The notes under the pieces were generated by a model. That model made no database searches. It saw only the letters and a list, made by a program, of their open reading frames with translations, and was not told the origin of the DNA. The position numbers and the translations under genes were made by a program. 53,273 bases of DNA from a virus: positions 1 to 53,273 of the IMG/VR virus record IMGVR_UViG_3300033553_000194. One strand, written 5' to 3'. How positions within the stretch are numbered: the stretch's first letter is position 1; the number at the start of each line of letters is the position of its first letter. Positions 5,570-52,624 of the stretch are shown in pieces.

Positions 5570-5814
5570 CATGCCCGGACTGTTCAAAAATCCACGTCTA
5601 CAGCAAAACTTGCTTGAATTGTTGTGTCCGGCTGGTGACCAGCGCAAGGCCATCAAAGCGTCTGCAAATGTCGATGCTCGGGCTGATTGCGCGTCACAGG
5701 GGCGCGCCGAGCGAGGCCGAGATTCTTGCGGCCTTGGCCTTGACTGCCCAAACAGGACCGGATTCGAAACCGGAAAGCGATCATCCCCGCGCAGCACGCA
5801 CAACGACAAGTTAG
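5566..5814 (+). CDS. Small zinc-ribbon-like phage protein
   Basis: About 82 residues from a TTG start that overlaps the previous stop; GGAGG lies five bases before it (a GTG at 5554 is the alternative). It has a CPDC ... CLNC pair near the N terminus followed by a helical Leu/Arg segment (ARPSKRLQMSMLGLIARH), a pattern I associate with small phage zinc-finger proteins. The later part is low-complexity. It overlaps the frame at 5571-5903. Confidence 0.5.
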   Translation: MTCPDCSKIHVYSKTCLNCCVRLVTSARPSKRLQMSMLGLIARHRGAPSEAEILAALALTAQTGPDSKPESDHPRAARTTTS

Positions 5815-14270: not shown

Positions 14271-15386
14271 ATGGCACGAACTGTTATCGGGGTGAATGAC
14301 CCCAAAGCGGTAAAAAAGTGGAGCGGCGCACTGGCATTTGATGTCAGCGCCATGTCTTTCTTCCAGCGTAAGTTCATGGGTTCTGGATCGGAAGCTTCGA
14401 CCCCGATCCAGATTCACACCGACCTTGAAAGCGACGCTGGCGAGGTCATCAACTATGACCTGGTGGCCGAGCTTCGCATGGAGCCCATCGAAGGCGAGGA
14501 CATTCTTGAAGGTCGCGAAGAAGCTCAGCGCTTCTATACCGACTCGATCTATGTTGATCAGGCTCGCGTTGGTGCAAACACGGGTGGCCGGATGACGCGC
14601 AAGCGCACGCTGCATAACCTGCGGGCTATCGCCAAGCGCCAACAGGCCGCCTGGTGGGCACGTCTGCAAGATGAGCTGATGTTCATCTACCTGTCTGGCG
14701 CGCGCGGCACAAACGCCAATTTCATTACACGCCTCGGCTACCAAGGCCGGGCCGGCAATGCTTTGCGTGCGCCGGATGCTGAGCATCAATTGTTCGGCAA
14801 TGACGCGACTGCGACCGCCAACATCGATTCTGCGGATAAGTTCGGCAAGGCGCTGCTTGATCGTGCAGTGACCCGCGCATCGATGCAGGGCGGCGGTGCT
14901 GACAACGTGGCGAGCATGCAGCCGTGCAAGATCGACGGCGAAGAGTATTTCGTCTGTGTGATGTCACCCCTGCAGGAGAACGATCTGCGCAACGAGCTCG
15001 GCGGCGCTGGCTGGCTGGATCTGCAAAAGGCTGCTGCGGCAGCTGATGGCAAGAACTCAGCCATCTTCAAGAGCGCGCTTGGCATGTATCGCGGCGTGGT
15101 GCTGCATGCCCATCGCAATGTGATCCGCTACAAGGGCGGCGCTGGTAACGCAGTGGATTGCGCTCGCGCGCTGTTCATGGGCGTACAGGCCGGTGTAATG
15201 GCCTACGGCTCTCCTGGTACGAGCTTGCGCTACGACTGGTTTGAAGAGGCCCGCGACAATGGCGACAAGGTTGTTATTTCGTCCAGCTCGATTTTCGGCA
15301 CCAAGAAAACCGGCTTCACGATGGATGACGGCATTGTCAAAGACTTCGGCGTTATGGCGCTGGATACTGCGGCCGCCGTGGTCTAA
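14271..15386 (+). CDS. Major capsid protein (N4-gp56 family)
   Basis: This 371-residue protein matches the N4 gp56-type coat family: an early KKWSGALAFDVSAMSFFQRKF block, then GQ-poor strands with MTRKRTLHNLRAIAKRQQAA, EYFVCVMSPLQENDLRNE and YKGGAGNAVDCARALFMGVQA. It has an AAGGAG ribosome site and its own 15-mer element, as expected for the most abundant virion protein. It is the shell subunit, HK97-like in fold for the family. Confidence 0.88.
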   Translation: MARTVIGVNDPKAVKKWSGALAFDVSAMSFFQRKFMGSGSEASTPIQIHTDLESDAGEVINYDLVAELRMEPIEGEDILEGREEAQRFYTDSIYVDQARVGANTGGRMTRKRTLHNLRAIAKRQQAAWWARLQDELMFIYLSGARGTNANFITRLGYQGRAGNALRAPDAEHQLFGNDATATANIDSADKFGKALLDRAVTRASMQGGGADNVASMQPCKIDGEEYFVCVMSPLQENDLRNELGGAGWLDLQKAAAAADGKNSAIFKSALGMYRGVVLHAHRNVIRYKGGAGNAVDCARALFMGVQAGVMAYGSPGTSLRYDWFEEARDNGDKVVISSSSIFGTKKTGFTMDDGIVKDFGVMALDTAAAVV

Positions 15387-15392
15387 CAGCTA

Positions 15393-15412
15393 ACGGCCCG
15401 CTTCGGCGGGTC
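15393..15412 (+). terminator. Weak stem-loop after the capsid gene
   Basis: CCCGC-TTCG-GCGGG forms a short stem with a stable tetraloop but no T run. It could be an RNA-end stabiliser rather than a terminator. Confidence 0.35.
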
Positions 15413-15427
15413 TTAAAGGAGTAGTAA

Positions 15428-15904
15428 ATGGCTACGATTAAATCAAGTTTTGCCACTGGCCAGCAGGTAGTTCCAACAGGGACGGATGCAGGCCAAGAGG
15501 CTCATGTTCGCGCTGAAATTACACTGGCTGCTGCAATCGCATCCGGTGACGTTTTGGCGTTCCTCCCTCTACCAGCCGGCTACGTGGTAACCGATTGGGC
15601 GCTGGAAAACGACGACTGCGATACGGGCGCGACATTGGCCGGCTCGCTGGGTGTTCTCAATCCGGCTGGCACTGCGATTGATACTGCAGCTGCTAACGGT
15701 GGTGCATGGCTTTCCGCATCAACGGCTCTGCAGGCGGCTGCATTCACGCGCAATAACGCCCAATCTGTCGCTGTTCAGACGGCCGTAGCGCGCATGACGC
15801 CCTCCGCAACTGATCGCACGCTGGCATTTGTGGCTTCGGCTGCTGGTGCTGGTGGCGTTGGTTCCAAGGTGGCGCTGCATGTGTGGTTCAAGCCGGCGCA
15901 GTAA
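15428..15904 (+). CDS. Probable head decoration protein
   Basis: This 158-residue protein is Ala/Gly/Thr/Val-rich with no charged clusters, typical of beta-rich virion surface proteins. It lies directly after the major capsid gene, with AAAGGAG before its ATG. A Rho-independent terminator follows. The decoration role is inferred from place and composition only. Confidence 0.55.
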   Translation: MATIKSSFATGQQVVPTGTDAGQEAHVRAEITLAAAIASGDVLAFLPLPAGYVVTDWALENDDCDTGATLAGSLGVLNPAGTAIDTAAANGGAWLSASTALQAAAFTRNNAQSVAVQTAVARMTPSATDRTLAFVASAAGAGGVGSKVALHVWFKPAQ

Positions 15905-15926
15905 CAGGGTTTTCTCCTGAGCATTG

Positions 15927-15954
15927 GCGGGGTGGCAACGCCCCGCATTTTTTC
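15927..15954 (+). terminator. Rho-independent terminator after capsid genes
   Basis: A GCGGGG / CCCCGC stem (15927-15932 and 15941-15946) with an eight-base loop is followed by ATTTTTTCT. It should reduce read-through from the capsid genes into the connector and tail genes. Confidence 0.75.
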
Positions 15955-15977
15955 TCATTACTTCAAAGGATCTGCGC

Positions 15978-16406
15978 ATGAAGCTGCTGACCACTATCCC
16001 CCCTCGCGCAAACGGCACCGTCATTGCCAGGGTGCCGGGCAACAACACGCCTTACCTGTTTGCTGGCGATGATTTGAGCTGCGATGTTGAGCATGATGCT
16101 GACGCCAAGTATTTGCTCGGTCTAGGGCAGTTCGTCCCGGCCTGCGAAGCAGACTTCAGCAAAGCATCAAGTTTGCTCGATAAGCCTGTTCGTCAGGCCG
16201 AAGAAGATCCCGGCTATGAAATCAAGACTGTGGATTTGGACGACGATGAGGCCGGCGATGCTGCTAGCCCATCGGCTGATTTCGACATCCAAACCGCCGA
16301 CGCAAAGGCGCTGCGCGACTTCATCAAAGCCAAGACAGGCAGTGCTCCGCCCGGCGCTACAGGCCTTGATCGGCTTCGCGCAATTGCTGAGACGGTGGCT
16401 GACTGA
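15978..16406 (+). CDS. Unknown structural-region protein
   Basis: In this 142-residue protein the first 60 residues are strand-rich (TIPPRANGTVIARVPGNNTP). The rest is acidic and ends in a helical SAP/HeH-like segment (ADAKALRDFIKAKTGSAP). AAAGGAT lies upstream. It stops in an ATG overlap with the connector gene. Function unknown. Confidence 0.5.
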   Translation: MKLLTTIPPRANGTVIARVPGNNTPYLFAGDDLSCDVEHDADAKYLLGLGQFVPACEADFSKASSLLDKPVRQAEEDPGYEIKTVDLDDDEAGDAASPSADFDIQTADAKALRDFIKAKTGSAPPGATGLDRLRAIAETVAD

Positions 16407-16744
16407 TGGCCATTACCGGCAATCAGGTAGAGGCTCGGGCGCGGATTGGCCTGAACGATCGGATAGAGCCCTTTGGTTGGGATTCTACGTCGGTAATCCT
16501 TCCTTACTTGAATGCCGGTCTTGAGATGTTGAAAGTTCGTCGACCTGATGTGTTCTTCGGTAATTACACAGCATCTCCGTCGATAGTGACACTAGACGAC
16601 GTGTTGCCTATTGATGATTCCTACCTTCAGCCGCTCGCGGATTATGTCTGCGCACGCTGCAATATGCTCGACGACGAGCAGGCAAGCCAAGCTTTATCGA
16701 ATGGTTTCTTTAGCGCATTCGTAGCGCAAGTAGCGGGAGGCTGA
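16406..16744 (+). CDS. Head-tail adaptor-like protein
   Basis: In this 112-residue protein the pattern GLNDRIEPFGWDSTSVILPYLNAGLEML at about residues 15-42 (shown in parts), followed by a DDSYLQPLADYVCARC helix, resembles small phage adaptor proteins (DUF6682-like) that bind under the portal. Position after the capsid genes agrees. Assignment is by eye. Confidence 0.5.
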   Translation: MAITGNQVEARARIGLNDRIEPFGWDSTSVILPYLNAGLEMLKVRRPDVFFGNYTASPSIVTLDDVLPIDDSYLQPLADYVCARCNMLDDEQASQALSNGFFSAFVAQVAGG

Positions 16745-16766
16745 TGGGGCGCTGTGGAGTTCTTGG

Positions 16767-17378
16767 TTGAATGACTTGGTGCCGGAATTGCCGGGGGCGC
16801 TATTGCCGATGGTTGAGCATGCAACGCGCCGCGCTGCACAAGAGTTTTTCAGACGCTCAAGCGTCTGGAAAGAGGATGTTTCGATTGCCTTGGTGGCAGA
16901 TCAACCGCTTTACCCGATTGTTACATCTACCGGAACCGTGCCGGTATTAGTCGTGAGTGCGTCGATTGCTGACAGGGACGTAGATCCAACGCGCCGTGAT
17001 GAAGACATGATTGGCATGTTCGGCCCAGCGTGGCGCGAGGTGAAGGGCGCGCCAGTCGATCTGTTGCAGACTTCCCCTGATTCGGTGCGCATGTTCCCGA
17101 TGCCGGCGGCGTCTGGTGAGTCGCTGATTGCTTCGGTTTCGGTGACGCCTTCGGATGACGCTACGGGCATTCCTGACGCGCTGGCGATACGTTACCGCGA
17201 CGCGATTGCGGCCGGCGCACTGGCCCGCATGATGCTGAGCGCGAAAAAGCCGTGGAGCGATGACGCCCGCGGGACGATGTACTTGAATAAGTTCGAAGCC
17301 GGTATTGGCAAGGCGCAGAGTGATCGAGCGACAGGCTTCGGTCGTGGCCGCGCCGGCTCTCGTTTGACCTGGTGCTGA
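16767..17378 (+). CDS. Probable tail/connector protein
   Basis: This 203-residue protein has a TTG start, preceded by GGAG seven bases upstream; no ATG is available in the open frame. It has an N-terminal helix rich in Arg (ATRRAAQEFFRRSSVW), central strands and a C-terminal helical bundle. The arrangement resembles podoviral gatekeeper/tail-tube proteins. No firm family. Confidence 0.5.
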   Translation: MNDLVPELPGALLPMVEHATRRAAQEFFRRSSVWKEDVSIALVADQPLYPIVTSTGTVPVLVVSASIADRDVDPTRRDEDMIGMFGPAWREVKGAPVDLLQTSPDSVRMFPMPAASGESLIASVSVTPSDDATGIPDALAIRYRDAIAAGALARMMLSAKKPWSDDARGTMYLNKFEAGIGKAQSDRATGFGRGRAGSRLTWC

Positions 17379-39440: not shown

Positions 39441-39626
39441 CGTATCAAAGGACGCCACCAGAATCTCCTGATGGCTAAGCCCGGTATCGATGGCGGCTAG
39501 GCGCATGGCAATGTAGCGTGTTCCGTCCAGCTTTACTGTGACAGCCTTAGCCCCGCGCTTTGTTGTGGCCTGCACTGCCTTTTTAACGAGCCCGCCCATG
39601 CCCGGAAGTTGCTGCTGCCTGCTCAT
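39378..39626 (-). CDS. Small partition partner (ParB-like) protein
   Basis: This 82-residue basic protein has KRGAKAVTVKLDGTRYIAMR, which looks like a ribbon-helix-helix strand, then helices. It follows parA with an ATGA overlap, as small DNA-binding partners do in type Ib partition cassettes. The family is inferred from context and shape. Confidence 0.55.
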   Translation of the reverse strand: MSRQQQLPGMGGLVKKAVQATTKRGAKAVTVKLDGTRYIAMRLAAIDTGLSHQEILVASFDTWLRTHEIAQAINSASMELRK

Positions 39627-40254
39627 TTGCGCAACTCCGCGCCTGCGCACTTGCCCAATTGCGAAATCACGTAATCCCGCAAATGCCCAACTTCGACGGC
39701 TGACTTGCTGCATGCGTCAATCTCCTGTGCGGTGCGGCCGTCGATCATGCTGGCCTGGTAGTCAATGCGGTGATGTAGGATGACGGGCGCAACGGTTCCA
39801 TGCTGGGAAAGTTCGATAGCAGCGGCTCCGGTAAGCCTGGCTCGCGGTGTTGCGCCATTTATCACAAACAGCATGCGCTTTGATTCGGCCTCGATCAGAT
39901 CCACGGTCGCGCCGACTGCGCGCAGATCGTGTGGGCTTGGTCGGGTTGGAACGATCACCAGATCCGCCACGCGGATTGCTTTACGGATGTCAGACGTGAC
40001 GGCGGGCGGCGTGTCAATAATCAGGTATCGATACCCGCGCGAAGCAATGCGCTGAACGTCCTTGTCGATGTCGGACAGATCGGCGCTAAACAATACCGGC
40101 GCTTCATTCTGTCGGGCGTGAAACCAGTCTGTCAGACTGGCTTGCGGGTATGTGTCGATGATCGCCCCCCTTCGCCCAGCGCTACCGATAGATGCCCGGC
40201 AATGGTTGTCTTCCCGACGCCGCCCTTTCTGGATGCCACAACAATGATTTTCAC
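39623..40254 (-). pseudogene. parA: ParA-type partition ATPase, frameshifted
   Basis: GTG start at 40254. The first frame carries the deviant Walker A, KGGVGKTT, near residue 10 and runs to a run of six G (40165-40170 on the plus strand as C). The rest continues in the -1 frame as GAIIDTYPQASLTDWF, then YLIIDTPPAV (Walker B-like) to the stop at 39623. Joined, it is a normal small ParA/Soj-type ATPase of about 210 residues. One extra G would restore the frame. The break may be an assembly error, a true mutation or, less likely, -1 frameshifting. Confidence 0.75.
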
Positions 40255-40300
40255 AATTGCCCCTTTGCGTAAGCGCGTGATTGCGTAGGTGCGTAGTGTG
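40254..40300. repeat. Iterated GCGTA repeats upstream of parA
   Basis: TTGCGTAAGCGCGTGATTGC then GTAGGTGCGTAG: three GCGTA units at about 10-17-base spacing directly upstream of the parA start. Placement fits an operator/centromere for the partition pair. Confidence 0.45.
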
Positions 40301-40396
40301 TCGGCGTTGATAGGCTGATGCGAGGGCAGGAAAGGGCCCTCGAAAAGACTGCGGCCCCACACCGTTTCCGATGCAGGGCCGCTGATGCCGGTTATG

Positions 40397-40404
40397 TTAT
40401 CCGG
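40397..40404 (-). other. Possible integrase arm-type site, left of tRNA
   Basis: TTATCCGG is the complement of the CCGGATAA repeated at 40821-40838. A single left-arm copy on the other side of the tRNA gene from the main group. Confidence 0.4.
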
Positions 40405-40448
40405 CCTGGACTTGTTTGCTCGCCTCCCGGCAAAAGCGCCAGCATGTT

Positions 40449-40524
40449 TGGAGCGGGAAGCCGGGTTCGAACCGGCGACAGTCAGTTTGGAAAACTGAAG
40501 CTCTACCAACTGAGCTATTCCCGC
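40449..40524 (-). tRNA. tRNA-Gly (anticodon UCC)
   Basis: All arms fold: acceptor GCGGGAA/TTCCCGC, D stem GCTC/GAGC, anticodon stem TCAGT/ACTGA with loop TTTCCAA (anticodon TCC), T arm GCCGG-TTCGAAC-CCGGC, and a coded 3' CCA. Complete and apparently functional. It lies between integrase arm-type repeats, so it is probably also the attachment core: the phage would enter a host tRNA-Gly and carry a full copy. Confidence 0.92.
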
Positions 40525-40889
40525 GTTTAGGCTGTGGGCGGCCGAGAACCCCCGACCCTACGCCGTTGCCGCGTTTGACCAGCGAATGAACTCTAGCACA
40601 CGAATCGACCGGACAAGAAAAACCGGACAAGAAACAGGATAAATTCCTTGTCCGGTTGGTGTCAAGCCTTGCGGCTACAGGCTTGGAGCTGGTTTTTACA
40701 CCTCGCCGTGGAAGGTGCGGTGCATATCTGCCGAAGTCCATTTACGTCCAGAATGCCTTGCTGCTACACTAGCTGAGCGGGTTTTGACGTCCGGGAAAAT
40801 CTGGATTTGTCCATCTGCAGCCGGATAAAAACCGGATAAAAACTGGACAAGAATCGGGCGGCTCGGCGTTGTCCGGTCAGGTGCACGAC
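40525..40889. other. attP arm region between tRNA-Gly and integrase
   Basis: No gene is seen here. Two direct copies of ACCGGACAAGAAA (40608-40620, 40622-40634), an inverted TTGTCCGGT (40648-40656), two CCGGATAAAA-type copies (40821-40840), CTGGACAAGAA (about 40843-40853) and another TTGTCCGGT (40869-40877) mark repeated binding sites for the integrase and its directionality factor. Confidence 0.7.
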
Positions 40890-42071
40890 ATGCCATCACT
40901 GAACGACACAAAATGCAGGCAGGCCAAGGCTACAGACAAGCCATACCAGTTACAAGACGGCGGAGGGCTATATCTTGAGGTCAGGCCAAGCGGAAAGAAG
41001 ACGTGGCGCTATCGTTATTGGCTGAATGACAAAGACGGACGGCTGACGATTGGCGACTATCCGCGCGTATCTCTTCAGGACGCCAGGAGAGCCGCAGAGG
41101 ATGCGCGGGTGATGTGCCGTGAAGGAAAGAGCCCGGCAATAGCAAAGCGGATCGAGAAGCTGACGGCCTTGGTGACTTCTGACGGAACGTTTGAATCCGT
41201 GGCGCGCGAATGGATCGAGAAGAAGACGCCTACCTGGTCGCAGCGGTACAGGAAGGAAACCGTCACGATTCTGGAAGGCAACATCTTCCCGCCCCTGGGC
41301 AGCATTCCGATTGCCGAGATTAAGCCGGCTACGCTGCTTGGCGTGCTGAAGATCATGGAGGCACGCGGCGCAGCCACCTACGCGAACATAGCGCGCAGCC
41401 GATGCTCGGCGGTGTTCCGCTACGCAGTGCAGAACCTGTATTGCGAGAGCGACCCGGCTGCGATGCTAACGGGCGCAATCATCAAGGGTAAAGAGAATGG
41501 CGCGCGGCCAATGTCCCGCGAGGTGATTGCAGGCCTGAAGACGCGGATCACGAACTACAGCGGAAACCACACAACCATCATTGCGTTTTGGATGCTCCTA
41601 TTGACGTTTGTTCGCACGATTGAGCTACGCCGGGCCGAGTGGGCGGACGTTGATCTTGACGGGGCCCTATGGACGATCCCTGCCGATAAAATGAAGATGC
41701 GGCGGATTCACCTTGTCCCACTCTCGCGCCAGATGGTTGAGCACTTGCGATACCTGAAGCGGATCAGCGGAGGCGGGCGGCTGTTATTCCCGCACCTTCG
41801 CCGGCCTGATGAAATGATGAGCGTCGACGTGATCAACTCGGCACTGAAGACAATGGGCTACGCGCCCGGGGAGTGGTCCGCCCATGATTTTAGGGCTACG
41901 GCCAGCACGCATCTGCATGAGCTAGGCTACCCCACTGAGCACATCGAAATGCAGCTTGCGCACGCCGATGGAACGGTTAGAGGTATCTACAACCACGCCA
42001 AGTACCTGCCGGATCGGCGGGTGATGATGCAAGCCTGGGCGGACTGGATTGATGGGCTGTCTGTCCAATAA
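40890..42071 (+). CDS. int: P4-type tyrosine integrase
   Basis: This 393-residue protein has an N-terminal DUF4102/arm-binding domain (DTKCRQAKATDKPYQLQDGG, GLYLEVRPSGKKTWRYRY), a core-binding domain (about 100-190), and a catalytic domain with Arg in FVRTIELRRAEW (near 241), HxxR in AHDFRATAS (near 332) and the Tyr in YNHAKY (near 367). It catalyses integration and excision at attP. The ATG at 40890 is preceded by AGGTG. No sign of an integron-integrase-specific insertion, but this was judged only by eye. Confidence 0.9.
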   Translation: MPSLNDTKCRQAKATDKPYQLQDGGGLYLEVRPSGKKTWRYRYWLNDKDGRLTIGDYPRVSLQDARRAAEDARVMCREGKSPAIAKRIEKLTALVTSDGTFESVAREWIEKKTPTWSQRYRKETVTILEGNIFPPLGSIPIAEIKPATLLGVLKIMEARGAATYANIARSRCSAVFRYAVQNLYCESDPAAMLTGAIIKGKENGARPMSREVIAGLKTRITNYSGNHTTIIAFWMLLLTFVRTIELRRAEWADVDLDGALWTIPADKMKMRRIHLVPLSRQMVEHLRYLKRISGGGRLLFPHLRRPDEMMSVDVINSALKTMGYAPGEWSAHDFRATASTHLHELGYPTEHIEMQLAHADGTVRGIYNHAKYLPDRRVMMQAWADWIDGLSVQ

Positions 42072-42097
42072 AACCACCCACAGTGGTTTTATTGGAC
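42063..42097. terminator. Bidirectional terminator / hairpin after integrase
   Basis: A perfect 15-bp inverted repeat (42063-42077 and 42083-42097, loop CCACA) begins inside the last codons of int. It should stop int transcripts and the opposing leftward operon. Its right half GTTTTATTGGAC recurs at 43096-43107. Confidence 0.65.
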
Positions 42098-42116
42098 TCT
42101 TCGGGGTCTAAACCTT

Positions 42117-42123
42117 GTTAGGC
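42117..42123 (+). other. attC-type core site at the array end
   Basis: GTTAGGC fits GTTRRRY. No matching RYYYAAC partner is visible to the left; the integrase gene and its hairpin lie there. It looks like the truncated last site of the array. The TTA supplies the stop codon of the minus gene 42118-42297. Confidence 0.5.
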
Positions 42124-42297
42124 GTCAATGACCGGCATGTTTGCCCGCTTGATTTCCTCTGCCTCTTCTACGTCCCAAAGTATGCCGGTCAGTGCGTCAA
42201 TCACCATGTTCGGCGGGGCGGTGCAAATGCACGCCAATGTCGAGCACAAGTGACTCACCGTTCTGTATTCGCGTTTCTGTTCTGCCGCTGTTGCCAT
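42118..42297 (-). CDS. Unknown small protein, cassette-borne
   Basis: This 59-residue protein (AEQKREYRTVSHLCSTLACI, then acidic EEAEEIKRANMPVIDA) has AAGGA before the ATG. The stop TAA lies inside the attC core GCCTAAC. Start lies 19 bases after the attC site at 42317-42373 when read on the minus strand. No family recognised. Confidence 0.6.
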   Translation of the reverse strand: MATAAEQKREYRTVSHLCSTLACICTAPPNMVIDALTGILWDVEEAEEIKRANMPVIDA

Positions 42298-42316
42298 ATC
42301 TATCCTTTCTGTGTCC

Positions 42317-42373
42317 GCCTAACCCGTCGCTCAACCGGACTCCGTACCGGAGCCGGTTAGCTTTGCGTTAGGT
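42317..42373 (+). repeat. attC site (integron recombination site) B
   Basis: GCCTAAC ... GTTAGGT, 57 bp. Inner arms GCTCAACCGG and CCGGTTAGC pair with one unpaired C on the left arm, and CTCCG/CGGAG forms the top stem. Core boxes, spacer sizes and the extra base match integron attC (59-be) sites, with the plus strand as canonical top strand. Confidence 0.85.
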
Positions 42374-42556
42374 ATTCTCGCCGCCATTAATCAACGCATC
42401 AATTTGGCGCTGGCTCCAGCGTGATGACCGGCCTATTTTAACCGGCTTCGGAAATAGGTCCTTGTTTATCAGCGCATAAATAGTGCTCTTTCCGAGAAGA
42501 GTTTGGCGCTGTACGTCAGTTATTTTGATGAGTGTGTCGATCAGGATTGGTTGCAC
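42368..42556 (-). CDS. AlpA-like excisionase / regulator
   Basis: This 62-residue AlpA/MerR-type winged helix reads LIKITDVQRQTLLGKSTIYA, then FPKPVKIGRSSRW and RQIDALI. AlpA proteins act as recombination directionality factors or activate excision. It is the likely partner of the integrase at 40890. Its stop TAA lies in the attC core ACCTAAC. Confidence 0.8.
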   Translation of the reverse strand: MQPILIDTLIKITDVQRQTLLGKSTIYALINKDLFPKPVKIGRSSRWSQRQIDALINGGENT

Positions 42557-42726
42557 TTCATCGCCTCGCTTTCACATGCTAATCGAAGTCGCTCTAAATC
42601 TCTCAGCTTTGCGTCAAATGGTTTTCGCTCCTTAGATCCGTCAGGAATGAAACTTGTAAAGGTTGCAACGTGCCAGCGCAGTTCAGTTAGTAATTCTGCG
42701 GTGCGTTTGTATTTGTCTTTTGTCAT
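42541..42726 (-). CDS. Small charged unknown protein
   Basis: A 61-residue basic helical protein (RTAELLTELRWHVATFTSFI, then PFDAKLRDLERLRLA). It overlaps the gene before by four bases and the AlpA-like gene by 16. No family recognised. Confidence 0.55.
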   Translation of the reverse strand: MTKDKYKRTAELLTELRWHVATFTSFIPDGSKERKPFDAKLRDLERLRLACESEAMKCNQS

Positions 42727-43034
42727 AAATCCTCCGTCTTCGGGGCTTCTGGCATGGGCATCCAGTGATTCACGAGGCTGCTTTCGTATTCAGCTACATT
42801 TAACCATCGTCCTGTTGAGTAAAGACGAGCGACTTCAACAATCCCGCCGTTATTCACAATCACCCATTTATCCTTCGGAGCGCTCGCAATATCCTGCCAC
42901 TGCGTCATCGCCCGCAACCGGTCAATCTCGCCTAATAGTGCGGCGCGCTCGTGGCTTTCTGTTCCCGGCGTGCCGACGTAAATCGGGTCAATCGCTATGC
43001 GCAGGCTGGCTTCTAACTCTTTTGTTAATGTCAT
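42723..43034 (-). CDS. DUF551-like protein
   Basis: A 103-residue protein with a coiled N terminus (ELEASLRIAIDPIYVGTPGT) followed by a DUF551 domain (WQDIASAPKDKWVIV ... VNHWMPMPEAP). Second DUF551 gene of the phage. First gene of a three-gene segment between two attC-type sites. Confidence 0.7.
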   Translation of the reverse strand: MTLTKELEASLRIAIDPIYVGTPGTESHERAALLGEIDRLRAMTQWQDIASAPKDKWVIVNNGGIVEVARLYSTGRWLNVAEYESSLVNHWMPMPEAPKTEDL

Positions 43035-43054
43035 TTCAATACCATTTCTTCCGG

Positions 43055-43132
43055 GTTGAACCCGAATTATTGATCCAATAATCCATGTTTGGATGTTTTA
43101 TTGGACGGATTGGTTACGAAGATACGTTAGGC
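43055..43132 (+). repeat. attC-like site C, degenerate
   Basis: Ends in a good GTTAGGC core (43126-43132); the left partner GTTGAAC has one mismatch to RYYYAAC. The inner stem CCAATAATCCA / TGGATGTTTTATTGG is imperfect. Likely an old or longer attC; less sure than the other sites. Confidence 0.5.
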
Positions 43133-43306
43133 ACTCGCCAGTTTTCCGATGAGCGCCACAACAAAGTACAGCGCCACAATCACAGTCAGCACTTCGTATC
43201 GCGCCCGGCTCTTGCCTGCTGAGTATCCTTTTGCCCACTCGCGCGTTATAGCGTCTGGCGCAGCAAATACTCTCAGGCTATCGGTCAATCGTTCAAAGTC
43301 TGGCAT
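43127..43306 (-). CDS. Small membrane protein, cassette-borne
   Basis: This 59-residue protein has a charged N terminus (PDFERLTDSLRVFAAPDAIT), then one membrane segment near 39-55 (VLTVIVALYFVVALIG). AAGGAG precedes the ATG. The stop TAA lies in the attC core GCCTAAC. Bounded by attC D upstream and attC C downstream. No family recognised. Confidence 0.65.
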   Translation of the reverse strand: MPDFERLTDSLRVFAAPDAITREWAKGYSAGKSRARYEVLTVIVALYFVVALIGKLASA

Positions 43307-43328
43307 TTCATTCTCCTTGTAAATTCCA

Positions 43329-43387
43329 GCCTAACAAATCCTTCCAGCGAACCGGCTGAAGCCGGCCGCTGAAGTCACGCGTTAGCC
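43329..43387 (+). repeat. attC site D
   Basis: GCCTAAC ... GTTAGCC, 59 bp. Arms CTTCCAGCG and CGCTGAAG pair with an extra C on the left arm; ACCGGC/GCCGG forms the top stem. The left arm AACAAATCCTTCCAGCG and right arm GCTGAAGTCACGCGTTAG parallel the class 1 integron aadA-type site, which fixes the plus strand as top. Confidence 0.9.
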
Positions 43388-43675
43388 GTCAATGTAGTCG
43401 CGCACTTCGCTATCACGCACCCGCTCGCGGCACACTGAGATAGCCTTGTCGCGCTCGTCCTTTTCATCACGGTCTAGCGTTTCAGCCTTCCGTGCTAGGT
43501 AACTCACCGCTTCCATGTAGGTGCGGAAGTATTTAAAAACCAGATGGCTTGTGCTTACGCTCCAGAGTGTCACCATCGGCTCTGCATCCTTCTCTTTCAG
43601 CATGTTGTCTGCCATCTCTCGGGCAGTAATCAACTGGTCGTAGCTGAGTGTCTTCAGGTATTCCTTGATGCTCAT
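43382..43675 (-). CDS. Unknown protein, cassette-borne
   Basis: A 97-residue charged helical protein (IKEYLKTLSYDQLITAREMA, later DEKDERDKAISVCRERVRDS). AAGGGGA precedes the ATG. Bounded by attC E upstream and attC D downstream; its stop TAA is inside the core of D. No family recognised. Confidence 0.65.
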   Translation of the reverse strand: MSIKEYLKTLSYDQLITAREMADNMLKEKDAEPMVTLWSVSTSHLVFKYFRTYMEAVSYLARKAETLDRDEKDERDKAISVCRERVRDSEVRDYIDG

Positions 43676-43689
43676 TTTGTCCCCTTTCC

Positions 43690-43747
43690 GGCTAACCCGG
43701 CACTTGAGCGGGACCGCTTTCAGCGGCCCCTCAGTTCTGCGTTAGGC
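43690..43747 (+). repeat. attC site E
   Basis: GGCTAAC ... GTTAGGC, 58 bp. Arms ACTTGAG and CTCAGT pair with one extra T on the left; CCGC-TTTCA-GCGG caps the stem. The DUF3310 gene reads into this site from the right and takes its last seven codons from it. Confidence 0.85.
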
Positions 43748-43986
43748 GTCGCGTCTTCTGTCAGCTCCAAATAAATCTGAAGAGTGTGCATCGCCTTCTT
43801 GATGTCAAGACGCCCGCCCTTGTCCTCTTCGCGGGCTAGGTACGCAATGACAGTGCCCTTTACAAAGCCTTTTAATTCTTCCGGCGTCATCCACTTACTA
43901 AGAACCTCCCATGGCTGATAGTTTCCAAGCTTCTTGTAATGGTCTCCGCCCTCTTGTGTTTCAAGCGCCGATGTTTTATTGCTCAT
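43720..43986 (-). CDS. DUF3310 phage protein
   Basis: This 88-residue protein has the DUF3310 pattern: GGDHYKKLGNYQPWEVLSKW, then GFVKGTVIAYLARE and DIKKAMHTL. It is found with nucleotide-metabolism and recombination genes in many phages; role unknown. Its C-terminal residues NAELRGR are encoded by attC E, so the gene was extended or cut by that recombination site. Confidence 0.8.
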   Translation of the reverse strand: MSNKTSALETQEGGDHYKKLGNYQPWEVLSKWMTPEELKGFVKGTVIAYLAREEDKGGRLDIKKAMHTLQIYLELTEDATPNAELRGR

Positions 43987-45656: not shown

Positions 45657-46348
45657 CACACTTCTCCCCTGATTGCTGCGAGTGCTTCTTTTGATAAAGA
45701 TATGGGGCACGGAAATAGTTGGGCTATTTCCTCAAGCGCATCCGTCGCTATCTTGAGATGGGCGCGGAGTTGGTCTCGCTCTAATGTCAGTGCGTCATAG
45801 TCGTGGTCGTATTGCGCCACCATCAAATCCAACTCAGCCACCTTCGCCAGCGCGGCATGGAGCTGGGGTGCGGGGACGAGCGGAATGTCGTGATAGGTGT
45901 CTTCCTCGGGCGACACAGTAGGAAACGTCAAATCTCGTTGATCGTTTTTACGTAGCCCATTCCACCACAACACCAGATCCACGCTCACCGCCTCAATGGC
46001 AGCGAGTTTTGCGCGGAGTTGGTCGTGTGCAATCCCGACTTTCACCATACGCTCAAATTCGAGCCGGGCTACGATTACAACATTGCAATCGTCGGGGTAC
46101 GAATACAGATCCTCCCCATCCTCCCAGCTGAGGAGTTTTGCTGTTGATTCCTCGCGCCCTTCCTGCCGGGCTGCTTCGAGTGCGGCTTTGTCGTCGAGCG
46201 GCTTGTTTAGGAAAACGTCAGGTTCCCGGTTCCAATCATCGTATGTACCTGATCCAGGCTCCCCGTAATAGAGTCGTTGATCATTTAGATCTCGGTTCGA
46301 CCACTCGCAAAAATAGCCGAAGGGCTCAATCTTCTTTGTGTCAGTCAT
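45656..46348 (-). CDS. Unknown early protein
   Basis: A 230-residue protein: an acidic aromatic N-terminal part (FGYFCEWSNRDLNDQRLYYG) and two coiled stretches (about 95-125 and 165-215). ATGA overlap with the upstream gene. Similar N-terminal blocks occur in phage proteins of unknown function. Confidence 0.6.
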   Translation of the reverse strand: MTDTKKIEPFGYFCEWSNRDLNDQRLYYGEPGSGTYDDWNREPDVFLNKPLDDKAALEAARQEGREESTAKLLSWEDGEDLYSYPDDCNVVIVARLEFERMVKVGIAHDQLRAKLAAIEAVSVDLVLWWNGLRKNDQRDLTFPTVSPEEDTYHDIPLVPAPQLHAALAKVAELDLMVAQYDHDYDALTLERDQLRAHLKIATDALEEIAQLFPCPISLSKEALAAIRGEV

Positions 46349-46956
46349 TTTGTTTCCTTAACTTGCCATGGTGCAGTTCCATTGCACATTTTGATAAACA
46401 TCTCTTTTTGTGCATCCCCAGCACCATCCCACGCAGCCTCCCTCGCAGCCCTCGCACCATCCCACGCAGCATCCCACGCAGCATCCCACGCAGCCTCCCT
46501 CGCAGCCCTCACACCATCCCACGCCGCAGCCCACGCAGCATCCCTCGCAGCCTCCCTCGCAGCCCTCGCACCATCCCACGCAGCATCCCCAGCACCATCC
46601 CACGCAGCACCTAGCTCACTGCGTGACGCTAAACCGTTCGCGAAACGTTCAGCCACATCGTTGCAGTGTTTTACGAGGGGATCGGGACTTAAATGCTCAA
46701 CCTGCCGTGCGCACCAGACGGCAAACAGCCTGCGATCACGATCTGTGGCATTGCTCGCCCGTAGCGCCCACAGCGCATCATCAAGGCCATTCGTTTCAAG
46801 GATGGATAACAGGCTGATTGGTTCTGCATAAGCGAATCGGATATAGGTTTCTCGCTCAGGGTCGAACGGAACACCCTTTAGTGCAGATACGACTTTGTTG
46901 TAACCGCTGATGCAGGCTTGGTGTTTTCGTAAGGCTTTTGGTGTTGTTGTAATCAT
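46345..46956 (-). CDS. Protein with Ala/Trp/Asp tandem repeats
   Basis: In this 203-residue protein, residues 1-112 are an ordinary alpha-helical domain (FAYAEPISLLSILETNGLDD, LFAVWCARQVEHL). Residues 115-185 are short repeats of AAWDAAWDGARAAREAA type, predicted as one long helix. The DNA of this part (about 46425-46610) is a tandem repeat in multiples of three. ATGA overlaps at both ends. Function unknown. Confidence 0.6.
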   Translation of the reverse strand: MITTTPKALRKHQACISGYNKVVSALKGVPFDPERETYIRFAYAEPISLLSILETNGLDDALWALRASNATDRDRRLFAVWCARQVEHLSPDPLVKHCNDVAERFANGLASRSELGAAWDGAGDAAWDGARAAREAARDAAWAAAWDGVRAAREAAWDAAWDAAWDGARAAREAAWDGAGDAQKEMFIKMCNGTAPWQVKETK

Positions 46957-48260: not shown

Positions 48261-49933
48261 GCCGCCTCCTGCTCGAAATAATCAGGCACGCTCAAAACGT
48301 GCGCGGCGATGGCGTTGCAGATTGCGCGCAAGTCGCTGGCGCGGTACAGGATCGCGGCCCGGTCTTTTCCTACGGGCTCAAATCCGAGCCTGGAGAGTGA
48401 TTCGCGGGTGACGCTGACGATGCTCAGGCGTGAGTTGATCTGTCCGAGGGTGATGCGTGCGGAGGTGTCGACTGCCGCCTGAATGTGCGGAGCTGTGGCA
48501 GGGTTTCCGAGTAGTCTCGCCGCTACATCCGGGGCAATAGGTTGCGCTGAGCTGGCCTGCTGTTTGGCGCGCTCTTCTTCGATGCGCGCGCTTGCCGAGG
48601 CTTTGGCGTCTTCCTCTGCGCGGATCTTGTTGCGCAATTCTTCCTCTTTCGCCAGCGTCTCAACCTTGTGGGCTGCAATCCGGTTTGCAATGATCGCTGA
48701 AAGATCGTCCGTCGCTTTCATGACAAGCGTGGCTTTGTCGGCAAACAGGAAATCAAAGCCTTCGCCCATTGTGGCGATGATGTTCAGATTGGCGTTGATC
48801 CGTCCGACTGATTCATTGGCCTTGATCTTCGCGCTGGCAAGCTCCGTAGAAATCTTGTCCTTCATCGAGTCGAGCGACTTCAGGCCTTTGATCACGCCGG
48901 CAAAGTCTGCAGCCTGGTTCGTGAAGAACTCGCACTTCAGCTCAAACACGTGCGAGGCCAGTGCGCGGGTGGCGTCCATCACCATCTGCATGCGGCGATT
49001 TTCTTTTTCGCTCTTCACCAGCTTTTCCAAACTCAGGCGATTGCTGCGCGCCAGATCCTTGAGCGTGGCTTTCAGCATGCGCATGGTGTCGATGCACTCA
49101 ACCTGCGCCAGCGCGGCAGATTCGGCGGCGTCCAGCATTTCCTCTGCCTTGCTCAGGGCCTTTATTGCTGATTCGCAGTCTGCAAAATCCTGATCGTTCT
49201 CGGGCTTCTTGTTGATGCGGGCAACGAAGGATTGCAGCGCGGCTTCGAACTTCAGCAGGTTGTCGGTAACGGCAAGCGAGCCGGTGACCTGAACGAACAC
49301 AGAGGGCAGGGTTTCTACCGGCGCGGCGACGATTTGCGGGGCAGTAGCCTGCGGGACGAATTCAGCCAGATCGACAGCAAATTGCTTCCAGCCGGCGATC
49401 AGCGCGGCGCGGCGCTCGGGCTTCGATGCGTACCAGATCCATGTGCAGTTTTCTTCTGTGCCGTCAGACACCATAAACAAGGTGCGGGCTGCGCCAGAGA
49501 CAAGCATCTGATGCTCCGCCTGCGGCCAGTGCGTGTCCGGAAGGTCATTGTGTTCGCTGATGTAGGTGGCCAGCCAGCCGGCGAACAGCTTGTGTTCACA
49601 ATTCACGTCCTCGGCCATCGTCAGGCCATCGAATGAGGCCAGTAGCGGCAGGCCTTCAATCTCGGCCGCGCCAGTGCAGGGATAGAGTTCTTCGCCGATG
49701 ATGCCTTCGGCAATCGGGCGGGCACCGGCTTCTGAGGCGTGGCCACGATCAAATAAGGCTTGCGTGGCCGGGGCAATGTCGGCGGTGATGCCGGTCTTCT
49801 TCATCGCCAGCAGGTCGCCGCGTTTCTGGTATTTCGACAGGCCCATCATGGCCGGCGCTTCGCTGGCGGTGAAGTGCTGGAGGCGAGTGGCCAGCCATTC
49901 CGGCGAGCCCTGAACGAGATTGAAGATTTTCAT
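48257..49933 (-). CDS. YqaJ/lambda-exonuclease-type recombination nuclease, extended
   Basis: A 558-residue protein. Residues 1-200 form a YqaJ viral recombinase domain: QGSPEWLATRLQHFTASEAP, catalytic Asp102 in ASFDGL, and Glu113-x-Lys115 in CEHK. It chews 5' strands at double-strand ends to give 3' tails for the annealase encoded just before it. Residues 210-470 are an unusual extra helical region (coiled coil to about 460) followed by a small C-terminal domain, so the protein is more than twice the length of lambda exonuclease. Confidence 0.85.
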   Translation of the reverse strand: MKIFNLVQGSPEWLATRLQHFTASEAPAMMGLSKYQKRGDLLAMKKTGITADIAPATQALFDRGHASEAGARPIAEGIIGEELYPCTGAAEIEGLPLLASFDGLTMAEDVNCEHKLFAGWLATYISEHNDLPDTHWPQAEHQMLVSGAARTLFMVSDGTEENCTWIWYASKPERRAALIAGWKQFAVDLAEFVPQATAPQIVAAPVETLPSVFVQVTGSLAVTDNLLKFEAALQSFVARINKKPENDQDFADCESAIKALSKAEEMLDAAESAALAQVECIDTMRMLKATLKDLARSNRLSLEKLVKSEKENRRMQMVMDATRALASHVFELKCEFFTNQAADFAGVIKGLKSLDSMKDKISTELASAKIKANESVGRINANLNIIATMGEGFDFLFADKATLVMKATDDLSAIIANRIAAHKVETLAKEEELRNKIRAEEDAKASASARIEEERAKQQASSAQPIAPDVAARLLGNPATAPHIQAAVDTSARITLGQINSRLSIVSVTRESLSRLGFEPVGKDRAAILYRASDLRAICNAIAAHVLSVPDYFEQEAA

Positions 49934-49934
49934 G

Positions 49935-50801
49935 TTATTGCTCCTGATCCATTGCAGAAACGAATTCGGCGTGTTCGCCCATTGCGTCGGCGGGTTGTTG
50001 TTCAGTGGTGATCGGCTTGATTGCGCGGATCGTGGCTTGCTGTGCGGGGCTCAGATTGAAGCGGCTTGAAACCATATTGATGATGTGATCAGGGTTTGAT
50101 TTCCCCTCGTTAATCTTCGCTTGCCAGACGTCCTTGTTTGCTGCCATCTGTGCTTCCGTGTAGTCGGGAAAGATCACTTTGGCCTGGCGGCTGCTGACGA
50201 CTTCGGCGCGGCCCATGTCGCGTTCTGTGATGCGCTCGGCTTCGTCCTCGTCGTAGATGCCGACAAAGCCAAAGGCGAGGCGGGATGTCTGGATCATGGT
50301 TTTGTGGCGCAGGAAGCGCTTGGTGTGGGACTGCCAAGGGCCGTCGATTTGGTAGCCGTTGTTGCCTTTGAACGGCTCACGATAGACTTCATCTAGATAT
50401 TCGCGGATCACAATTGGGCGGCTGCGATCCTTGCGGTACATCACGCACTCCATCCACTCCGGGGCGTCTGTGCGCGCTCCTGGCATGCGAATCATTTTTT
50501 CTGATTGGCGGAACTCCATGCCGTCAAATTGCTGGTTCTCGTTGATGATGCGCGACCAGCCATCAACACCGACTACCGGAACAATGCCATTCTTCTTGTC
50601 CGGGAAGGCGTAGATTTCCTTTGTCCAAGGATTCAGCCCATACTGATTCGATACAACAAGCAAGGCCGACATTTGCGCGTCTGTGACGTCGCCCTTGAAC
50701 GCGGTTGCTTTCAGTACGACCATCAGCTCATGCGCTTCGCTGCCTTCCACGCCCAGCTTAGCCGCCAGCGTTCCGACTTGCTTCAATACGATATTGCTCA
50801 T
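49935..50801 (-). CDS. bet: Bet/RecT-type single-strand annealing protein
   Basis: This 288-residue protein matches the lambda beta family: LLVVSNQYGLNPWTKEIYAF, then VPVVGVDGWSRIINEN, GPWQSHTKRFLRHKTMIQTSR. It anneals complementary single strands in phage recombination with the neighbouring exonuclease. The ATG at 50801 makes an ATGA overlap with the gene before; the exonuclease starts one base after its stop. Confidence 0.9.
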   Translation of the reverse strand: MSNIVLKQVGTLAAKLGVEGSEAHELMVVLKATAFKGDVTDAQMSALLVVSNQYGLNPWTKEIYAFPDKKNGIVPVVGVDGWSRIINENQQFDGMEFRQSEKMIRMPGARTDAPEWMECVMYRKDRSRPIVIREYLDEVYREPFKGNNGYQIDGPWQSHTKRFLRHKTMIQTSRLAFGFVGIYDEDEAERITERDMGRAEVVSSRQAKVIFPDYTEAQMAANKDVWQAKINEGKSNPDHIINMVSSRFNLSPAQQATIRAIKPITTEQQPADAMGEHAEFVSAMDQEQ

Positions 50802-51013
50802 TTGCCAAACTCCTTGTTTGCCGCGAACTCGGCATCTGCCTCGTCGCATGTGTCTAAAATTTCTTGCGCCAACTGGCGAGCCAGCCGTGTGTTCCAGTCG
50901 CCGCCCTGCACTGACAGGCTTCCGTTGTGCGACATGATCTGAATTCGTGGATCAATCCCCCTGCTGACGATGCAGCATTCGGTCGTCCAGCCATCTAGGC
51001 CTTTGATACTCAT
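50798..51013 (-). CDS. Small unknown protein before bet
   Basis: A 71-residue protein with strands (WTTECCIVSRGIDPRIQIMS) then an acidic helix (RLARQLAQEILDTCDEADAE). ATGA overlaps at both ends. Function unknown. Confidence 0.55.
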   Translation of the reverse strand: MSIKGLDGWTTECCIVSRGIDPRIQIMSHNGSLSVQGGDWNTRLARQLAQEILDTCDEADAEFAANKEFGK

Positions 51014-51210
51014 TTGGCGGCCAGAAACGAGTCTGGAACGCCGTAGCAGCTCTGCGCCTTTGCGCACGCTTCCTCGACTCGAGTAAGGATGTGCTGGCGC
51101 AACTCGGCTTGCTCGGCCTCGCTGCGCACCTCGTCCTCAAAGCTCATGCGTCCGGCGATCCCGATCAGCATGAAGATGATTGCGACGGCCCAAAAGTCTT
51201 TGGTTCGCAT
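51010..51210 (-). CDS. Small membrane-anchored protein
   Basis: A 66-residue protein with one N-terminal membrane segment (WAVAIIFMLIGIAG, about 7-20) and a charged helix with two Cys. TGATG overlap upstream and ATGA downstream. Function unknown. Confidence 0.55.
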   Translation of the reverse strand: MRTKDFWAVAIIFMLIGIAGRMSFEDEVRSEAEQAELRQHILTRVEEACAKAQSCYGVPDSFLAAK

Positions 51211-51632
51211 CAGAAGAGTCTCCATTTCAGAGAAGCTCCGACAAACCAGGTTGTGTTCTTGCCGAAGGCAGGGGCGGTGATGATGTCGACGCTCAGATCG
51301 TCCGTGCCGATGTTGATCGTCGGTGCTGCGATTACCGGGCTGTTGTAGCCGGTAGCGGCTGCAACCATGATCCCGGCGCGCAGATACTTCATCTGCAACG
51401 GACGGTATGCGTAGCCCGCATAAAACGTGTCTTTGTCGTAGCTGTTGCGGTAGTAGCCAGCAATCAAACCGCCATCGCCTAACGTGTGCTCGATGCCAAG
51501 GCCGTGATTTGCTTCGTTCCATTTCTCTGAACGATTGCCGTGGTAACTGACGCCGTGCGTGGTGATGTAGGTGTCTGCGCTGGCTGTTGATGCACAGGCA
51601 AGCAGCGCAAAGGCGAATAGAGCGCGTTTCAT
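51210..51632 (-). CDS. Outer-membrane beta-barrel-like exported protein
   Basis: In this 140-residue protein, a signal peptide (KRALFAFALLACASTASA, cut after the AxA) is followed by alternating strands ending in an aromatic residue (VGASLKWRLF), the usual beta-barrel C terminus. Repeated G-Y-Y and G-Y-A-Y turns support this. An early phage gene for a host surface protein could block further infection or alter the envelope; inferred. Size is close to small eight-strand barrels. Confidence 0.65.
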   Translation of the reverse strand: MKRALFAFALLACASTASADTYITTHGVSYHGNRSEKWNEANHGLGIEHTLGDGGLIAGYYRNSYDKDTFYAGYAYRPLQMKYLRAGIMVAAATGYNSPVIAAPTINIGTDDLSVDIITAPAFGKNTTWFVGASLKWRLF

Positions 51633-51796
51633 TTCGGCATTCCCTTCATGGCTTCTGGATCGCCACGACGAAAGCCGAGGCTGATCATTGCTTTAAGCTC
51701 TTCGCAGGCTTGGCAGCAATTGCTGTTGCGGGCGGCTTCAAACTTTGCGCAGATTGCGCAGGGCCTGTCTTTTGCGATTTCGGTCATGTAGCCCAT
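51629..51796 (-). CDS. Small zinc-finger-like protein
   Basis: This 55-residue protein has CAIC near residue 13 and CCQAC near 27, a likely zinc site, and a basic tail. ATGA overlap with the barrel gene. A second ATG at 51787 is possible. Confidence 0.5.
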   Translation of the reverse strand: MGYMTEIAKDRPCAICAKFEAARNSNCCQACEELKAMISLGFRRGDPEAMKGMPK

Positions 51797-51798
51797 GA

Positions 51799-51930
51799 TC
51801 AAGACCCCATCAGGTCAAGAATTGACGGGAGCGCGTCAGGCGCGGCGGCGGGCAGCAGGGAAGGGCGGCGCAGCTCAGTCCCAATCAGCGCCAGCTCTTC
51901 CAGAAATTCTTTCAGTGCATCTACGGTCAT
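51799..51930 (-). CDS. First small gene of the leftward operon
   Basis: A 43-residue product: an amphipathic helix (VDALKEFLEELALIGTELRR) and a Pro/Ala-rich end. GGAGGA precedes the ATG. First gene after the leftward promoter, where lambda has N; no Arg-rich antiterminator motif is seen. Confidence 0.5.
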   Translation of the reverse strand: MTVDALKEFLEELALIGTELRRPSLLPAAAPDALPSILDLMGS

Positions 51931-51987
51931 TTCGTCCTCCAGTCTGCAAAGCCCTTGCGGGTTCGTGTAAGTGCTGCTGATGGAGTG

Positions 51988-52016
51988 ACTATAGATATAT
52001 CTATATATTGTGTCAA
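51988..52016 (-). promoter_or_regulatory. Leftward early promoter (PL-like)
   Basis: On the minus strand TTGACA (52016-52011), a 17-bp spacer and TATAGT (51993-51988) make a near-consensus sigma70 promoter. The spacer and -10 box are covered by the palindromic operator. It should drive the leftward operon. Confidence 0.8.
51990..52005. promoter_or_regulatory. Operator, perfect 16-bp palindrome (left operator 1)
   Basis: Identical to the right operator at 846-861. Lies in the spacer and -10 box of the leftward promoter. Confidence 0.8.
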
Positions 52017-52030
52017 TAGATTTATCTATA
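52015..52030. promoter_or_regulatory. Operator, imperfect copy (left operator 2)
   Basis: AATAGATTTATCTATA differs at two positions from the perfect operator. Centre lies 25 bp from operator 1, so cooperative binding on one DNA face is possible. Confidence 0.65.
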
Positions 52031-52085
52031 TATTTTTACAAGACAATCCATCTTTGCCCGTGTGGCTGATTTTCTGGAGATTTTC

Positions 52086-52325
52086 GTGTCTTGGATCGAC
52101 CCTTATACGTTCTCTGAAGTCGACGCAGGGGACGGGTTTTTCATCATTGCAGTGATCCTGCTTGTTGTTCTTGTAGAGGCCTATAAGAAAGGAATTAAGC
52201 GATTCCTAATCACCTTGGCGGCGATGTCTGCGGTCGGTGTGGCGATAGCGGTCTTCCCTTTGATTGGGTTGATCCTGGCGGCAGCCGCCCTCTTGCTGTT
52301 CTTGATTGGGATGGTATTGGCGTAA
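52086..52325 (+). CDS. Immunity-region membrane protein
   Basis: A 79-residue protein; GTG start preceded by TGGAGA (a GTG at 52062 is possible). Two or three membrane segments (about 16-30, 40-55, 58-78) after an acidic N terminus. Divergent from the leftward promoter, with an operator in between. Possibly an exclusion protein expressed in lysogens, like rex genes; not shown. Confidence 0.55.
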   Translation: MSWIDPYTFSEVDAGDGFFIIAVILLVVLVEAYKKGIKRFLITLAAMSAVGVAIAVFPLIGLILAAAALLLFLIGMVLA

Positions 52326-52347
52326 AAAAGCCCGCACTCAGCGGGCT
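52324..52347 (-). terminator. Rho-independent terminator
   Basis: AGCCCGC/GCGGGCT stem (52329-52335, 52341-52347) followed on the minus strand by TTTTTT. Ends the leftward two-gene unit 52754-52370; it also overlaps the end of the plus-strand gene. Confidence 0.8.
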
Positions 52348-52369
52348 CGTTGATGCAATAGCGATGGGC

Positions 52370-52624
52370 CTATCTTTGTCTTGGGTCTGGTTTGGGTTTG
52401 GTAAGCTTTTGGATCATTAGAACGTTTACTGCTATGACTGCAAGCAGTGTCATCGATCCAAACCCTGCCGCCTCGCCAAGCCCCGCGACAATAGAGGATG
52501 TGAGCAAGGTTAGTGCTATGGAGACCGCGGGGAATGATCGGGTTTTTAAGTGAAACAGCGCCACAATCACAAACACCGGAAGCGAATAACCAAGGCCTAA
52601 AGCAAAGTCGTTGATTAGCAGCAT
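52370..52624 (-). CDS. Small polytopic membrane protein
   Basis: An 84-residue protein with three hydrophobic segments (SLPVFVIVALFHL, VSIALTLLTSSIVAGLG, MTLLAVIAVNVLMI) and a Pro/Lys-rich tail. Starts right after the YHYH-type gene, so the two are probably one unit. Lysogenic conversion or exclusion are possible roles; unknown. Confidence 0.55.
   Translation of the reverse strand: MLLINDFALGLGYSLPVFVIVALFHLKTRSFPAVSIALTLLTSSIVAGLGEAAGFGSMTLLAVIAVNVLMIQKLTKPKPDPRQR

Follow-up and report, generated by a model that had tools for sequence, protein, structure and literature searches.

A Phage Early Operon Carrying Integron attC Sites, Inverted Cassette Genes, and No Integron Integrase

Bacterial integrons are stores of adaptive cassettes, and the phage described here probably carries a comparable platform that has inverted cassettes and no integron integrase of its own, with the integron integrase IntI acting in trans. 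The window, meaning the whole stretch of DNA analyzed, is a metagenomic virus record from IMG/VR (53,273 bp) whose genes include those for terminase, portal, head, RecE, and RecT proteins. Its leftward early operon has, at the 3' end, an array built around three imperfect palindromes, which are real attC sites, though their recombination by IntI has not been shown. Phage genes enclose the array within a single operon, with int and AlpA to one side of it and DUF3310, RecE, and RecT to the other. The first-pass annotation was thus right to place an integron-type attC array, unaccompanied by intI, in the early operon of a phage. What it missed is that the array consists of compact cassettes in which the gene is inverted relative to attC. 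The features are as follows.

40869..42071, + strand: P4-type tyrosine integrase, not IntI (PF13356, PF22022, PF00589; no TIGR02249 match in the record)
42063..42097, + strand: long hairpin in the interval from int to the attI-like site, probable terminator (sequence, self-inverse match, fold)
42106..42123, + strand: attI-like simple site GTCTAAACCTTGTTAGGC, left end of the array (motif GTCTA-N6-GTTAG; crossover G/TTAGGC after 42117, the slash marking the cut)
42118..42297, - strand: cassette A gene (ORFa), 59 aa, unknown, inverted (cassette 42118-42367; TAA stop in R core)
42317..42373, + strand: attC1 (covariance model R1, 42.4 bits on +, 16.5 on -)
42368..42556, - strand: AlpA-like regulator/excisionase, probably phage backbone (PF05930, 3e-7)
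42541..43034, - strand: 61-aa ORF and DUF551 protein, between attC1 and the 43126 core (PF04448, 3e-4)
43126..43132, + strand: GTTAGGC core, cassette edge without a recognizable attC (no model match with filters off)
43127..43306, - strand: cassette B gene, 59-aa probable membrane protein, inverted (cassette 43127-43381; stop in core)
43329..43387, + strand: attC2 (42.9 bits on +, 6.7 on -)
43382..43675, - strand: cassette C gene, phrog_10878 family, inverted (cassette 43382-43741; PHROG 5e-16; stop in attC2 R')
43690..43747, + strand: attC3, right end of the array (35.5 bits on +, no match on -)
43720..43986, - strand: DUF3310 protein, flanking operon gene (PF11753, 1.1e-7)

Two further observations concern the wider locus. 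A ParA-like gene and a tRNA gene (- strand) lie beside the integrase at 39623-40524, a possible attachment or partition region. At 46345-46956 (- strand), a 203-aa phrog_18326 protein contains many near-repeats of the AWDGARAAREAAWDAA type.

Identity of the attC and attI-like sites

Are the palindromes attC sites? The three sites and their cores were present at 42317-42373, 43329-43387, and 43690-43747, as originally reported, and the covariance check that had been suggested for them was carried out with a model built for the purpose (CM R1). It was trained on 12 attCs from class 1 integrons on plasmids, with long variable loops trimmed and the structure set by hand, and was searched against 431 kb made up of the window and 42 phage loci. 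Within the window it matched exactly these three sites, with E values over the 431 kb of 1.2e-8, 8.7e-9, and 1.2e-6 for attC1, attC2, and attC3, respectively; the best unrelated match reached 15.8 bits. In the plasmid control, known attCs were recovered in the expected orientation and opposite-strand echoes were weak (12.8 to 15.8 bits). An Rfam scan gave no match to an attC family. P12002L was not matched by CM R1 either, so the model misses divergent attCs.

The sites also meet the test of folded structure: the central spacer is unpaired, and one arm, the left on the + strand, bears extra-helical bases (35 to 43 bits with the model, and DNA folds). These bases number two per site, not the single one first claimed, and their offsets are identical to those in the aadA1, VIM-1, and dfrB1 attCs. 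When held against the core consensus RYYYAAC/GTTRRRY, attC1 matches fully, while attC2 (GTTAGCC) and attC3 (GGCTAAC) each have one deviating base. The DNA fold of attC1 gave a z score of -5.3 on the - strand. Taken by itself, a generic hairpin score stands out only moderately, with some shuffles of the window reaching 26 to 34, and a plain hairpin-plus-core score is not decisive without further evidence. The significance resides in the full attC pattern.

Could the hairpins instead be transcription terminators or RNA elements without a role in recombination? They do lie between genes of one operon, and a terminator-like hairpin (42063-42097) adjoins the array. However, their extra-helical bases, spacers, and cores fit the attCs used by IntI at 35 to 43 bits and in one polarity, no T tracts follow the stems, and blocks of homology between phages stop at recombination cores, leaving this reading very improbable. 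As attC sites, the three lie within 1.4 kb with no IntI in the record (which may be incomplete), and so satisfy the definition of a CALIN.

A fourth, degenerate attC had been proposed at 43055-43132. It cannot be upheld as an attC, having no match to the model even with filters off, but its GTTAGGC core does serve as a cassette edge, and the stop of the gene at 43127-43306 falls exactly in that core (43126-43132). Two hairpins in the window, at 42063-42123 and 43069-43132, contain TTTTATTGGAC followed by GTTAGGC exactly 19 bases on; the TTTTATTGGAC-19 nt-GTTAGGC stretches are at 42087 and 43097, both at cassette edges.

The lone core at 42117, previously regarded as the end of the array, is indeed at the array end, but it is more aptly seen as belonging to an attI-like site (42106-42123) with the motif GTCTA-AACCTT-GTTAGGC. 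In an initial 3.3 Mb of loci, searched on both strands, GTCTA-N6-GTTAG occurred nine times, and all nine occurrences were at integron-array ends. About three occurrences would be expected by chance (ten fixed bases, even composition), and the motif was spotted by inspection and counted afterwards, so the count is not blind. In the genomes behind L150, L151/L148, and L152, the motif separates intI from the cassettes, and in L146 and L148 it is ahead of the attCs; in three phages (L055, L057, and L077) and the window, it lies 200 to 570 bp before the first attC. A tenth occurrence (GTCTA-N6-GTTAGGC), found later in L161 at about 5678-5695, is at the end of a gene with TAA in the core, and no attC was found near it by CM R1. 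The upstream gene in L161 has its first 17 residues in common with the membrane protein of the window. In the phage arrays of L101, L130, and L083, the first core resembles attI1 by eye. The motif is therefore shared with the attI positions of real integrons; there are no data on attI function of the window site.

Inverted cassettes and their genes

attC sites are directional, and CM R1 places all three window attCs on the + strand. Every gene of the array is on the - strand, opposite to this polarity, and the genes with homologues, encoding AlpA, DUF551, phrog_10878, and DUF3310 proteins, are all on that strand too. The window thus does not meet the test for canonical cassettes, in which the gene runs along the attC polarity. 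Four genes, namely ORFa, AlpA, and those of the membrane protein and the phrog_10878 family, have their TAA stops inside crossover cores, and in the three single-gene cassettes the gene starts right behind an attC with its own ribosome-binding site. At the right end, attC3 sequence encodes the C terminus of the overlapping DUF3310 ORF.

How might such a platform work? The leftward early operon ends, on its 3' side, in an attI-like site and the attC-flanked single-gene cassettes next to it. Each cassette gene reads in the direction of the phage operon, towards the attI-like site, with its TAA formed by the crossover core. IntI acting in trans, most likely supplied by a proteobacterial host that carries an integron, would catalyze cassette insertion and removal at G/TTRRRY cores. 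New cassettes would then join the tail of the operon, where they would be transcribed by the phage without disrupting anything upstream. Which way the array grows, and what the phage gains from it, are inferences. IntI selectivity for the bottom strand fixes cassette orientation for expression from Pc (PMC8946536), from which it can be inferred that inverted cassettes would be silent in a bacterial integron. attC folding is favored with the bottom strand on the lagging-strand template (PMC8946536); by inference, the reactive strand would be the lagging template if the gene were codirectional with replication.

What do the cassettes carry? AlpA-like, DUF551, and membrane proteins had been listed as cargo. 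ORFa, the membrane-protein gene, and the phrog_10878 gene do occupy clean single-gene cassettes, but AlpA and DUF551 need not be cargo. Among relatives of the integrase, AlpA is convergent with int and mostly directly behind it, so AlpA is probably phage backbone. No known function is assigned to the window cassette genes. ORFa had no family match in profile searches, and neither it nor the cassette C gene had relatives among the viral contigs searched. phrog_10878 relatives do include gene 35 of phage N15 (PHROG profile, tblastn). A fold of the cassette C protein predicted without an alignment was useless (pLDDT of 48.7). Comparing cassette content in related phages, as had been recommended, yielded no variant of the window phage, but it did yield relatives of cassette B, whose protein has homologues in the L083 array (43% identity), L160 (72%), and L163 (43%). 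The L160 homologue (5001-5300; 72% at the amino acid level) is in what appears by eye to be a normal-orientation cassette, with a long attC missed by CM R1.

The contig L164 encodes a DUF3310 protein 89% identical to that of the window. DNA homology between the two runs as far as 43754, leaving about 10 bp to the array edge, and beyond the equivalent position L164 has other phage genes instead of the array. Joining the flanks of the array would yield a slightly shorter DUF3310 protein. Insertion of the whole array as one event at the 3' end of DUF3310 was considered and rejected; the AlpA gene inside the array argues for several events.

Recurrence and mobility in other viral arrays

Phage-embedded attC arrays had been thought rare. 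They are not very rare: dozens of IMG/VR contigs have multi-attC arrays, and a report on phage CALINs appeared in 2023 (PMC9892861). The arrays were surveyed by three pattern scans of viral contigs followed by CM R1. Short-attC patterns and a class 1-trained model bias this procedure, and its frequencies are not estimates of prevalence. Terminase was found in 14 of 28 records. The contigs L071 and L088, whose arrays are clearly of bacterial type, were excluded when the first gene sets were compiled.

Inversion proved to be widespread. In the first survey, 81 ORFs opposite to attC (three of them from the window) matched 46 PHROG and 10 Pfam families, while the 60 on the same strand as attC matched none. 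The second gave 31 PHROG families for 30 opposite-strand ORFs and none for 24 same-strand ORFs. For cassettes common to several contigs, the best-conserved stop-free frame is mostly on the opposite strand, with L068/L138 as an exception. Judged by summed ORF length, inversion holds for 30 of 38 viral records and for none of five plasmid controls. This measure is noisy and misreads the window, which has a spurious long + ORF. The length of the longest ORF was abandoned as sole evidence of orientation, being noisy in GC-rich DNA, and was replaced by profile matches and protein conservation. The cargo of inverted arrays includes DNA methyltransferases, Acb2/Tad1 hairpin proteins (three members), Lar restriction alleviation proteins, RNA ligase, HD phosphohydrolase, and HNH endonuclease. 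As counterpoints to the proposed platform, TJE1, L107, and L122 are viral arrays in normal orientation, as are the bacterial-looking L071 and L088, and the cassette B family occurs in the apparently normal-orientation cassette of L160. The 55-kb record IMGVR_UViG_3300038549_000019 (L083) contains one attC array twice (14320-17227 and 49630-52537), probably a repeated end.

Do such cassettes move? Between the contigs L124 and L125, identity is 99.6% over 6,184 bp and 100% over the following 812 bp, and L124 differs by one extra 534-bp cassette with an inverted HNH endonuclease gene (phrog_1571). Both edges of this cassette are in GTTAGGC, cut as G/TTAGGC, and the empty version in L125 reads ..CATGCGTTAGGCGTCAGGC. 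The junction has 9 bp in common (GCGTTAGGC), so microhomology recombination is not strictly excluded. For several other shared cassettes (L057/L077, L101/L130, and L056/L124), homology ends no more than 10 bp from a core. No cassette variants were found of the window phage itself, and its mobility is therefore supported by analogy only.

Might the array be a passive relic, taken from a chromosomal integron of a host by illegitimate recombination and now immobile? The record has no intI, the core at 43055-43132 has lost its attC, the R cores of attC2 and attC3 are one base off the consensus, and, as mentioned, the window phage lacks known cassette variants. Bacterial cassettes, however, would carry the normal orientation, whereas the array genes are all inverted and codirectional with the phage operon. 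One cassette gene, moreover, is a member of a phage family (phrog_10878), many phages as well as phage H101 show this arrangement, and an exact cassette indel separates L124 from L125. A relic is accordingly unlikely. Nor is bacterial contamination or a chimeric contig at all credible as an explanation. It is true that the record is metagenomic and that IMG/VR includes bacterial-looking integrons (L071 and L088), but the array is bounded on both sides by phage genes in one operon, and an isolated, sequenced phage, H101, has the identical layout.

Phages thus appear to swap small genes, some of them for counter-defense, via a borrowed integron system. It is possible, though only tentatively proposed, that many unrelated phages have their own attI site and an inverted, counter-defense-rich pool of cassettes, moved by host IntI and kept functionally separate through inversion. 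If so, a phage cassette in a bacterial integron would face against Pc and be silent, a bacterial cassette in a phage would be antisense to the phage operon, and host integrons would be a shared recombination machine for the exchange of phage counter-defense genes, of which methyltransferases, Acb2/Tad1, Lar, and similar proteins are the examples seen in such arrays. The orientation rule may then tell phage from bacterial cassettes, and cassette position may be a route to new anti-defense genes.

Source of the integrase and relation to known integrons

Which recombinase acts on the array? No match to TIGR02249 was found in the record, in line with the original statement that it has no integron integrase, and the window fails the test for a complete integron, which requires intI in cis. 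Profile matches likewise bear out the identification of the neighboring recombinase as a P4-type phage integrase. Might this enzyme have been adapted to recombine attC sites? It is the sole recombinase beside the attI-like site, and its stop codon is 46 bp from the core. Yet it has no similarity to TIGR02249, and its relatives are in loci without any attC, so that such an adaptation is extremely doubtful.

Supply of IntI in trans by a host is instead inferred, with no host of the window phage known. TIGR02249 scored above the cutoff in only two of 38 virus records (L088 and L066), both in ordinary orientation, and IntI was above the cutoff in five of seven bacterial genomes carrying attC1-like half-sites; viruses poor in IntI and half-site bacteria that bear it fit a host-supplied enzyme. 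In L066 (11124-12075), a viral contig, an attC pair lies beside an intI split over two frames. A contig of MAG SZAS-112 (L142, JAFECB010000008.1), which is one of those five genomes, has an inverted-looking attC array with phrog_2201 and phrog_1273 at 2394-3773, and the same genome encodes an intact IntI with a window-like attI motif; the array is possibly a prophage beside its integrase donor. A search of the genome contigs for RecE returned no match, leaving the host of the window phage unidentified.

CALINs in bacteriophages had already been reported (Qi et al. 2023, PMC9892861), with attCs of H101 and TJE1 that recombine with IntI1. In the portion of that paper available, the two arrays are described as typical bacterial cassette arrays, and neither inversion of genes relative to attC nor attI-like sites at CALIN ends are reported. 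Like the window, the isolated Pseudoalteromonas phage H101 (PH101) has an attC cluster without intI; CM R1 finds its four attCs on the + strand (27.8 to 33.0 bits), and its annotated genes are on the - strand. Unlike the window, TJE1 is in normal orientation by CM R1. The combination of inverted architecture and an attI-like site appears to be new among phage CALINs, as far as the open-license PMC subset of the literature goes.

With the integrons of environmental proteobacteria (Simplicispira, Methylophilus, and MAG SZAS-112), the window shares GTCTA-N6-GTTAG at the array end. In those three the motif is about 180 to 225 bp from the start of intI, whereas in the window it adjoins the P4-type phage integrase. 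With class 1 mobile and sedentary chromosomal integrons, it shares the structure of the attCs (R'', L'', L', R', and two extra-helical bases), an attI-like site, one-gene cassettes, and the G/TTRRRY crossover. Unlike them, it is without intI, is situated within a phage operon, and has no identified Pc promoter; and while their genes are directed away from attI, those of the window run towards the attI-like site.
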